NCBI RefSeq assembly: GCF_013359685.1
Contig: NZ_JABFMV010000003.1
Coordinates: 124,001 to 188,000, forward strand
Length of the DNA: 64,000 bases
Direction: 5' to 3'
From: Leifsonia sp. C5G2
GTDB taxonomy: Bacteria > Actinomycetota > Actinomycetes > Actinomycetales > Microbacteriaceae
Below are positions 8,880-64,000 of this stretch, piece after piece. The translations under genes were made by a program, and so were the position numbers. The number at the start of each line of letters is the position of its first letter. Within the stretch, counting starts at the first letter, position 1. The notes below the pieces were generated by a model. The model saw only the letters and a list, made by a program, of their open reading frames with translations. It ran no database searches and was not told the origin of the DNA.

Positions 8880-9129
8880 GGAAGAGGATCCTTTCCCCCG
8901 ACGCGCGTCTGCGCGCCGTCTGTGAGCTTCGCCACATGAACTGCCGGTACGTGCTGCGTTCTGATCCGCGCTACGTCGCCGCCCCGATGTCCGCTAAGGA
9001 AGACTCGGGAAGGCAGGCAGGAGTGACGGCATGATTGCTAGGAGATCACCCGGAAGCTGGATTCGCTCGTGACGCGGGTTCTTCGCGGGTGCACTGCAGT
9101 TTACCACCTCGGGCGTGAGGCTCGGGACG
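8880..9129 (-). promoter_or_regulatory. Long leader region of rho
   Basis: About 220 bases separate a TAAACT -10-like box (9098-9103, minus strand) from the rho start. No coding sequence or recognised RNA family is seen. Long leaders allow Rho to control its own transcription in other bacteria; that role here is inference. Confidence 0.4.
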
Positions 9130-10086
9130 CTACGCCGCCGGTGTGTCCGCCGACGCCGGCTCCACCCGCGCGACCGTCGCGCCCTTGAAGTCGACCGCGA
9201 GCATCAGCGGCTGCCAGCGCGTCTGCGCGGCCTCCTCCACCAGCTTCGCGGCGGCCAGCCGCTGGCTCGGGTCGCTGCCGAGGACCAGGATCGACGGGCC
9301 GGCGCCCGAGACGACGGCGGCGAAGCCGTTCTCGCGCAGCAGCGTGATGAGCCGGTCGGTCTCCGGCATCGCCGAGGCGCGGTAGCTCTGGTGGAGCTTG
9401 TCCTCGGTGGCCGCGTGCAGCAGTTCGGGGCTCTGGATGAGGGCCGCGACGAGCAGGGCGGAGCGGGAGACGTTGAAGACGGCGTCCTCGTGGGGCACCG
9501 ACTGCGGCTGGAGGCTGCGCGCCAGGGCCGTGGACATCACGTGCTCGGGCACCAGCACGAGCGGCGAGACGCCGCGGTGCACGATGAGCTTCTTGAAGCG
9601 CGGGCCCTCCGGGGTGACCCAGGCGATCGTCAGTCCGCCGAAGAGGGCGGGCGCGACGTTGTCGGGGTGCCCCTCCATGTCGTTCGCGAGGGCGAGCAGC
9701 TGCTGCGCGTCGAGATCGACGACGCCCTCCAGGAGTCCCTTCGCGGCCATGATGCCGGAGACGATCGCAGCTCCCGAGGACCCGAGGCCGCGGCCGTGCG
9801 GGATGCTGTTGCGCGCCCGCAGGTTCAGCCCCGGCATCGGCACGCCGACGGCGTCGAAGGTGTGCGCGATGGCGCGGACGACGAGGTTGCTCTCGTCGGT
9901 GGCCACCTCGCCCTCGCCGACGCCGACGACCTCGACGGTCGCGCCCGGCTCGTCGCGGACGGAGACCTCGAGCTCGTCGTAGAGGGCGAGTGCGAGGCCG
10001 AGCGTGTCGAAGCCGGGGCCGAGGTTGGCGCTGGTCGCCGGGACCTTGACGGCGACGGTCCGGCCGCGCAGGTCGGGCGAGGTCAC
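9130..10086 (-). CDS. thrB: Homoserine kinase
   Basis: GHMP kinase that phosphorylates homoserine for threonine synthesis, 318 residues. Motif 1 is PATSANLGPGFDTLGLAL near the start, the ATP loop is IPHGRGLGSSGAAIVSG near residue 95, and motif 3 is VVSGAGPSILVL near 265. The start is a GTG overlapping the thrC stop (GTGA). It is last in the lysA-hom-thrC-thrB operon. A longer open frame running back through thrC is not coding. Confidence 0.95.
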   Translation of the reverse strand: MTSPDLRGRTVAVKVPATSANLGPGFDTLGLALALYDELEVSVRDEPGATVEVVGVGEGEVATDESNLVVRAIAHTFDAVGVPMPGLNLRARNSIPHGRGLGSSGAAIVSGIMAAKGLLEGVVDLDAQQLLALANDMEGHPDNVAPALFGGLTIAWVTPEGPRFKKLIVHRGVSPLVLVPEHVMSTALARSLQPQSVPHEDAVFNVSRSALLVAALIQSPELLHAATEDKLHQSYRASAMPETDRLITLLRENGFAAVVSGAGPSILVLGSDPSQRLAAAKLVEEAAQTRWQPLMLAVDFKGATVARVEPASADTPAA

Positions 10087-62952: not shown

Positions 62953-63252
62953 ATGGCCGGATACCGCTACGAATTCGAGGCGGAACTCTTCCGCTGGGCG
63001 TCCCGACGGGAGCTGTGGGTGTTCGCACGGCTGCCGCTGGAGGTGTCGGAGGAGATCCGGCTCCAGCCGCATCCGCCGGCCGGGTTCGACTCGGTGAAGG
63101 TGCAGGTGACGCTGGGCGGCTCGCGCTGGTCGACGTCCATCTTCCCGGAGTCCGACGGCACCTACGTCGTCCCGATCAAGAGCGCCGTGCGGCGCGCCGA
63201 GGGCGTCGAGCTGGGCGACCGCGTCCGGATCGGCGTGGAGACGCTGCTCTGA
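62953..63252 (+). CDS. DUF1905 domain protein
   Basis: 99 residues, a small beta-rich protein (YRYEFEAELFRWASRRELWV, SVKVQVTLGGSRWSTSIFP, GTYVVPIKSAVRRAEGVELG). DUF1905 is widespread and uncharacterised; it often occurs alone or fused to YdeI-like domains. Its last 25 or so bases (63224-63246) are repeated exactly at the window end, beyond the NYN gene, which suggests that something integrated at its 3' end. The encoded protein still looks full length (DRVRIGVETLL). Confidence 0.88.
   Translation: MAGYRYEFEAELFRWASRRELWVFARLPLEVSEEIRLQPHPPAGFDSVKVQVTLGGSRWSTSIFPESDGTYVVPIKSAVRRAEGVELGDRVRIGVETLL
63224..63246. repeat. 23-bp direct repeat, left copy (putative attL)
   Basis: TCCGGATCGGCGTGGAGACG followed by CTG is identical to 63978-64000. 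This copy lies inside the 3' end of the DUF1905 gene, six bases before its stop codon ends. Confidence 0.85.
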
Positions 63253-63339
63253 CCCAAGGGATGGAATTCACCGTTGTCCACAGAGGCGAGCGGTGAACTT
63301 GACGCCCACGAGAACGGACGCCAAGATTGTCGTATTGCT

Positions 63340-63377
63340 CCCCACCCTCCTACGGGACTGGTGGGGCTTTTCTTTTT
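63340..63377 (+). terminator. Intrinsic terminator upstream of NYN gene
   Basis: CCCCACC (63340-63346) pairs with GGTGGGG (63360-63366), followed by CTTTTCTTTTT. It is the most canonical Rho-independent terminator in the window. It ends 15 bases before the NYN start codon. Confidence 0.85.
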
Positions 63378-63391
63378 CTGGGGGGGCCTGG

Positions 63392-63976
63392 GTGGCAAAC
63401 GCGCACCTGTTCATCGACTACCAGAACGTGCACCTAAGCGCCTGGGAGCTCTTCTCCCCGTATGGAGCACCGAAGCACGATTTCCTCATCGATCCCTCGC
63501 GCTTCGCGACCCAGGTGTCGGCTGCCTGGGCCTCTGGATCCGGTGAGGCGCTCGAGGTCTCCGAGATCGTTGTCTTCCGTGGACTGCCCGATCCGCGGAA
63601 AGAGCGTGAGATGAACTCGCGAGTGAGTCGCCAGCATTCTGCGTGGCGTCGCGACCCCCGTGTCCAGGTGAAGACTCGTGCGCTGCGCTACCCGAGGGAT
63701 TGGCCGGACGAGCGGGCTCAGGAAAAGGGCGTCGATGTGATGCTGGCCTTGGCCGTGGTCCGGTGCGCATTGGCTGACGACTGCGACAAGGTGATCGTCG
63801 CAACCCGAGACACAGACATCCTTCCCGCGATCGAGATGGCGTCCGAGGAGAAGCCGGGCTGCGTCATGGTTGCGAGTTGGGACGGCGGGAGTGTGCTCCG
63901 GGCAGGCGCCGGAGTTCCCATCATCCGTATGAATAAGAACGCCTTCGCGAGAAGCCGCGATACCCGGAAGTATTAG
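63392..63976 (+). CDS. NYN domain protein, putative ribonuclease
   Basis: 194 residues, a PIN-like NYN (LabA/DUF88-type) domain. The acidic residues expected for metal-dependent RNA cleavage are visible: Asp in HLFIDYQNVH at the N-terminus, Asp in EKGVDVMLALAV near residue 115, and two in VIVATRDTDILPAIE near 137. The start is a GTG at 63392, just before the domain; an earlier GTG at 63293 would translate through the terminator hairpin. Codon use is less GC-biased (CAT, TCT, GAT, CGT are frequent) than in neighbours, which suggests acquisition. The stop lies one base before the right 23-bp repeat. Confidence 0.85.
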   Translation: MANAHLFIDYQNVHLSAWELFSPYGAPKHDFLIDPSRFATQVSAAWASGSGEALEVSEIVVFRGLPDPRKEREMNSRVSRQHSAWRRDPRVQVKTRALRYPRDWPDERAQEKGVDVMLALAVVRCALADDCDKVIVATRDTDILPAIEMASEEKPGCVMVASWDGGSVLRAGAGVPIIRMNKNAFARSRDTRKY

Positions 63977-63977
63977 C

Positions 63978-64000
63978 TCCGGATCGGCGTGGAGACGCTG
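63978..64000. repeat. 23-bp direct repeat, right copy (putative attR)
   Basis: Exact copy of 63224-63246, reaching the window end, so the true repeat may be longer. It starts one base after the NYN stop and is a displaced piece of the DUF1905 gene end. Confidence 0.85.

Follow-up and report, generated by a model that had tools for sequence, protein, structure and literature searches.

Type III toxin-antitoxin systems (ToxIN, CptIN, TenpIN) place a ribonuclease gene downstream of an RNA gene and an intrinsic terminator, with one promoter expected, and occur on mobile replicons. The passages of PMC5086642 that deal with such loci count tandem nucleotide repeats in the RNA gene among the features that help to define them, and describe the published toxins as sharing a ToxN-type fold. 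Excerpts of two further papers describe a phage antitoxin-like RNA without an enzyme gene, the pseudo-ToxI of PhiTE (PMC3475682), and a CRISPR-associated NYN-fold ribonuclease tied to a small RNA (PMC11346440).

Here we describe a locus of Leifsonia sp. C5G2, at the end of a window of 64,000 nucleotides (the whole stretch of DNA that was analysed), in which a conserved hairpin RNA precedes a gene for a predicted NYN ribonuclease. By sequence it shows the type III layout of RNA gene and terminator upstream of a ribonuclease gene, here with the hairpin itself as the terminator, and units of its kind likewise lie on mobile replicons. It differs from type III systems in that the enzyme is NYN (PIN-like) rather than ToxN-type, that the RNA is divergent in four loci and that restraint of the NYN protein is a prediction; tandem RNA repeats, which NYN loci of E. 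coli plasmids share with type III systems, give way in the window to a single hairpin. Compared with the CRISPR-associated NYN protein, as excerpted, the present RNA is encoded next to the NYN gene as a fixed hairpin; compared with the excerpted account of PhiTE pseudo-ToxI, mimicry by phage copies of the hairpin would be a conjecture from sequence identity.

Other described families lie further off. The Xanthomonadaceae small RNA sX5 (Rfam RF02224) aligns with the hairpin over UUGCUCCCC...GGACUGG (window positions 63324-63369), and membership was rejected because its 18.8 bits fall short of the gathering score of 50; two Xanthomonas plasmid NYN loci gave no sX5 match at E<=0.05. Profiles of the PADLOC HEC-09 and LabA-like NYN candidate defence proteins gave weak, partial matches to the NYN core (HEC-09 5.6e-5 for the window protein), and their library returned no RNA partner. 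A literature search, with bioRxiv and most subscription papers outside its scope, did not find type III toxin-antitoxin systems together with NYN, and the excerpts it covered named no RNA partner for NYN proteins; one article, as excerpted, contains both 'NYN domain' and 'RNA antitoxin' (PMC7180214).

The insertion and its direct repeat

A preliminary description of the window had proposed that a 23-bp direct repeat, starting at the 3′ end of a DUF1905 gene, flanked a terminator and an NYN gene. The identity of the two copies is exact, whereas the length had been set by the window's edge: reading the contig on past base 64000 added eight bases, giving a repeat of 31 (Table 1), TCCGGATCGGCGTGGAGACGCTGCTCTGACC, which spans the final DUF1905 codons, the stop codon and three more bases. 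Within the window, the 23-base identity (repeat family D7) is exact, and the other 19 of the 20 repeat families listed, from 29 found, are imperfect or short.

Table 1 Features of the inserted unit and its flanks
Feature	Position in window	Strand	Basis or remark
DUF1905 gene, intact insertion target	62953..63252	+	Pfam PF08922, 2e-26
Left repeat copy	63224..63254	+	DUF1905 end, stop codon, ACC
Insert	63255..63977	.	723 bp; missing from the empty site of 9/27 relatives
Promoter-like TTGACG - 18 nt - AAGATT	63299..63328	+	By eye; position matches the box of relatives
Conserved hairpin RNA with T-rich tail	63332..63374	+	Covariance model R1, 61.9 bits (not independent, the window hairpin being one of the 20 sequences that built R1)
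Hairpin stem	63340-63346 / 63360-63366	+	Bulged U 63359
Hairpin inner stem	63348-63350 / 63355-63357	+	UACG loop
G-rich run resembling a ribosome-binding site, ahead of the NYN start	63380..63386	+	Sequence
Predicted NYN ribonuclease gene, 194 aa	63392..63976	+	PF01936
Right repeat copy	63978..64008; window holds 63978..64000	+	Contig (G000:C29) 187978-188008

All 28 same-genus genomes, the window's own included, matched DUF1905. To its right, the insert is flanked by a minus-strand reading frame that resembles a membrane-protein gene. In nine of the 27 relatives, among them the closest one (95% identical), DUF1905 is followed directly by this gene, with one repeat copy. The remaining 18 relatives keep DUF1905, with alignments that end at or near the gene end and are uninformative on the site. 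The empty site with a single repeat copy in these nine genomes thus establishes a 723-bp insertion with a 31-bp duplication, which left the gene intact, as had been proposed.

The observations named beforehand as contrary to this were not encountered: none of the 27 loci, searched over 1500 bp on each side, showed a second repeat copy, and no tandem DUF1905 gene was found. A 321-base DUF1905 query had a single further match in its own genome, 38 bases at 87%. An assembly or tandem duplication of DUF1905 was rejected, since the interval is foreign and the relatives are single-copy.

The insert has a GC content of 0.622, against 0.715 for the whole window, and lies below every 723-bp window sampled in 100-bp steps (lowest 0.635). 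Third-position GC is 0.76 in the NYN gene and 0.93 in DUF1905, which bears out the lower-GC codon use ascribed to the former. As had also been noted, there is no integrase between the repeats; NYN is the sole gene of the insert, whose right edge falls one base past its stop codon. Only a promoter-like sequence and the hairpin accompany it, so that the proposed content held for the NYN gene but not for a plain terminator, the hairpin being a conserved RNA neighbour of NYN. The insert is best explained as a horizontally acquired, self-sufficient RNA-protein module.

Site-specific recombination at the 3′ end of DUF1905 by an enzyme supplied in trans, or the relic of a larger integrated element, is a tentative account of the insertion, to which we give somewhat less than an even chance. 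The repeat coincides with a gene's 3′ end and leaves that gene intact, which fits a recombinase attachment site, and a recombinase gene adjoins NYN in genome G160 (recognised by eye) and in Acidovorax pACP3.1 (annotated) and lies ~350 nt from NYN in a Frondihabitans plasmid (annotated). Against it stand the missing integrase, the absence by eye of terminal inverted repeats in the insert, and the failure to find an attP, the repeat core having no exact match in viral contigs and none of the listed matches to phages or plasmids spanning the full repeat. The 31-bp duplication may equally well be a target duplication left by break repair.

A further objection comes from other NYN units, 22 of which were tested (two being the same locus, and L087, L111 and L112 having a misplaced gene end because of a broken or fused frame). 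The search for exact flanking repeats yielded one longer than 15 bp around a single unit, 25 bp of duplicated terminator-like sequence on a Rothia plasmid. On this count a recurrent one-gene mobile cassette lacks support, and the idea of recurrent repeats around NYN units was rejected.

The hairpin RNA and its NYN gene

The window protein scores 25.8 bits with PF01936, slightly above the curated cut-off of 24.2, and is confidently modelled with an NYN/PIN-like fold and conserved acidic residues; it is predicted to be a ribonuclease. All positive matches listed for it are NYN and none is of the ToxN-type fold, an absence that is no proof. Its start codon lies 18 nt beyond the final base of the modelled RNA. 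G160 contains three near-identical NYN segments that by eye resemble assembly redundancy, and one of the three redundant copies (L107, ~8922-9976) carries, also by eye, a transposase-like insertion at the NYN stop. A SAM-IV riboswitch lies near a broken NYN locus (L038 2807-2922).

The hairpin folds at -17.9 kcal/mol (z -3.1). A MAFFT alignment of 20 sequences shows both-sided changes in 6 of 11 pairs and 96.4% paired cells, values that 0 of 500 shuffles equalled in either case; further pair types show no excess over shuffles (488 of 500 as high). In a model-fitted alignment of 43 distinct rows, which leans towards the model, both-sided changes reach 8 of 11 pairs (0 of 500 shuffles as high). 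The hairpin RNA is under structural constraint, as this covariation shows. The bulged T is present by construction in the locus scan and the exact-hit pattern, both of which require it, and is also visible in unselected upstream listings of NYN genes.

A -10-like box, TAnnnT, lies 14-24 nt upstream of the stem in 28 of 38 hairpins (39 minus L040), 24 of the boxes at 18-19 nt; five control windows held it in 2-8 of the 38. The window copy has no strict TAnnnT box. In four loci of the same phylum (L123, L124, L125 and L128) the hairpin and its own promoter-like sequence point away from NYN. Behind these divergent hairpins, frames of at least 40 aa occur within 250 nt in L123 (from 188 nt) and L128 (from 57 nt), and none start there in L124 and L125. 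Two successive hairpin copies precede a single NYN gene in Sphaerisporangium album (L094 6087-6129 and 6270-6312).

Searching by protein first, we found the hairpin adjoining NYN in 32 of 39 records, a count that includes near-duplicates (two Clavibacter and three Rhodococcus plasmids, with Clavibacter pCSL1 in two sets). The records with a hairpin comprise 8 of 8 family genomes at E<=1e-10, 11 of 15 phylum genomes (the window's own not counted), 9 of 12 records of actinobacterial plasmids and all 4 viral contigs, so that the same hairpin stands directly upstream of homologous NYN genes on unrelated replicons. It is missing in seven records, four from the phylum (L116, L122, L129, L130) and three Mycobacteriales plasmids (L054, L188, L190). 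L129 has a hairpin-terminator that lacks the conserved bulge, and R1 matches ~700 nt upstream in L116 (29.5 bits) and past the gene end in L122 (20.3 bits) were not counted. None of seven weaker family NYN matches (L042-L048, E 3.3e-5 to 6.5e-4) has the hairpin, which ties it to this NYN group.

The reverse search gave a similar picture. Across 84,980 species genomes there were 19 exact hairpin matches, all with actinobacterial titles, 14 of them directly before NYN (one genome contributing two broken copies); on these counts the hairpin was rejected as a common actinobacterial terminator. On plasmids, NYN is present at 7 of 10 matches, namely all seven with a query coverage of 80% or more. 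The covariance model reached E<=0.001 in 15 of 398 family genomes and at least 50 bits in 11, of which seven have NYN (own included), one an NYN remnant and three none. Among 396 phylum genomes, NYN at 1e-10 and the hairpin at 0.001 each occur in 16, and both occur, adjacent, in 11 (own included), against 0.65 expected if independent. Over 39 hairpin-bearing loci, 12 of which came from the hairpin-first scan, the hairpin lies just upstream of NYN and points towards it in 35. Locus L150 (G392) has a hairpin followed by an apparent degraded NYN remnant.

From these comparisons, the conserved hairpin RNA and the predicted NYN ribonuclease are one module, of which the window holds a complete copy and which recurs in other actinobacteria, on plasmids and in prophage-like contigs.

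Solitary hairpins and NYN genes of other phyla

Not every hairpin has an NYN gene. NYN is lacking behind 5 of the 19 exact genome matches, one being a 519-base stretch and undecidable, and beside the hairpin in 7 of the 15 family genomes at E<=0.001, including all four below 37 bits. Of five hairpin-only phylum genomes, one (L171) has an ordinary terminator and another (L164) a hairpin beside a masked stretch. In L147 (G245), L148 (G111) and L162 (G757), a promoter-like box (by eye) and the hairpin appear with no NYN signature within the fetched 3 kb; these hairpins are possibly solo RNAs.

Viral contigs hold 22 exact matches, of which 20 are without NYN and have a terminator-like hairpin. Thirteen of the 22, two of which are cut at the contig end, form one related group located ahead of a 103-aa protein; a glycosyltransferase-like gene follows three, four are others, and two have NYN. 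BLAST returned 12 phage records with the hairpin, of which five, one per group, were read. By our own grouping, 8 of 15 NYN-free lineages have a tRNA gene no more than 250 nt away, a raw count that does not factor in tRNA density (L135, L137, L138, L183-L186 and L079, in phages and prophages). The NYN-free phage hairpins may be plain terminators, or mimics.

NYN genes are also found on plasmids of other phyla. On E. coli plasmids (4.6 kb, one of 9.3 kb), tandem hairpin units are followed by a terminator and then by NYN, a distant homologue of the window's, an arrangement by which type III toxin-antitoxin loci are defined (PMC5086642). The units have a period of ~33 bases; one plasmid has four of them, while two others have five apiece and differ in which units are duplicated; 408 plasmid records match the E. 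coli NYN at 1e-5. Among 11 non-actinobacterial plasmid leaders (L172-L179 and L191-L193, near-duplicates L180-L182 left out), six have a terminator near the NYN start, ending at most 25 nt from it in L175, L177, L178, L192 and L193 and assigned by fold in L179; the other five have none just upstream, and the actinobacterial hairpin (R1, E<0.05) was found in none of the 11. An 18-base hairpin unit, CCTACGGCGTGCCGTAGG, is common to Phaeobacter and E. coli plasmid NYN leaders (L174, L178).

Proposed restraint of the enzyme and competing readings

The best and most economical reading of the module is that of an RNA-restrained NYN ribonuclease, which, judged from sequence, we consider to have about an even chance of being correct. 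The promoter would yield a hairpin RNA of ~40 nt ending at its own U-tract, and occasional read-through past the hairpin would give the mRNA of the ribonuclease. Like type III RNA antitoxins, the hairpin RNA would most likely bind the enzyme and hold it in check, and loss of the RNA supply, through phage takeover or plasmid loss, would free the ribonuclease. We infer hairpin transcription, read-through, RNA binding, inhibition, toxicity and a role in defence or maintenance. In favour of restraint are the reciprocal association of hairpin and NYN, the covariation, the upstream box, the divergent hairpins and the tandem units of E. coli plasmids. Opposed to it are the form of the actinobacterial RNA, a single hairpin with no tandem array and no pseudoknot shown, the seven NYN records that lack a hairpin, the hairpins without NYN, the further pair types at shuffle level and the five non-actinobacterial leaders without a terminator just upstream.

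Ribonucleases that control their own leaders are established, and the hairpin could be such a leader, attenuating the NYN mRNA while the NYN protein binds or cuts it to set its own level. The usual placement of the hairpin just upstream of and towards NYN (35 of 39 loci) agrees with this. However, in the four divergent loci the hairpin faces away from NYN and no attenuation is possible there, which argues against a purely cis attenuator; moreover, G245, G111 and G757 have the box (by eye) and the hairpin without an NYN signature within ~1.5 kb. We regard autoregulation as unlikely.

That the hairpin is an ordinary terminator, which merely insulates the gene and is conserved by common descent, is improbable. 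In form it matches an intrinsic terminator, and phages bear nearly identical copies at the ends of genes and in the vicinity of tRNA genes; yet its sequence and compensatory changes are kept across wide NYN divergence, it comes after a promoter-like box, and it is rare at large, with most of its few exact genome matches beside NYN. Least of all do we favour an RNA cofactor or guide, by which NYN would act within a ribonucleoprotein, with the RNA targeting or activating the enzyme, a very improbable reading for which the conserved RNA neighbour and the proposal, in excerpts of PMC11346440, of a CRISPR-associated NYN as guide-RNA trimmer speak, but against which stand the conservation of the RNA without a variable guide part and the lack of any hint of a target.

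Under restraint of the enzyme by its RNA, the wider picture would be that NYN ribonucleases of several phyla make up an as yet undescribed class of toxins restrained by RNA, each with a small RNA of its own, a bulged hairpin in actinobacteria and tandem hairpins on enterobacterial plasmids, and that the NYN-free hairpins of actinophages, often beside tRNA genes, are antitoxin mimics; as a whole, we consider this possible but doubtful. The NYN-free phage hairpins offer a concrete test of such mimicry. In the Leifsonia genome, a complete RNA-protein unit arrived as a 723-bp insert. NYN proteins are numerous on plasmids, and the conserved adjacent RNA gives them a function that can be tested directly, and a simple handle.
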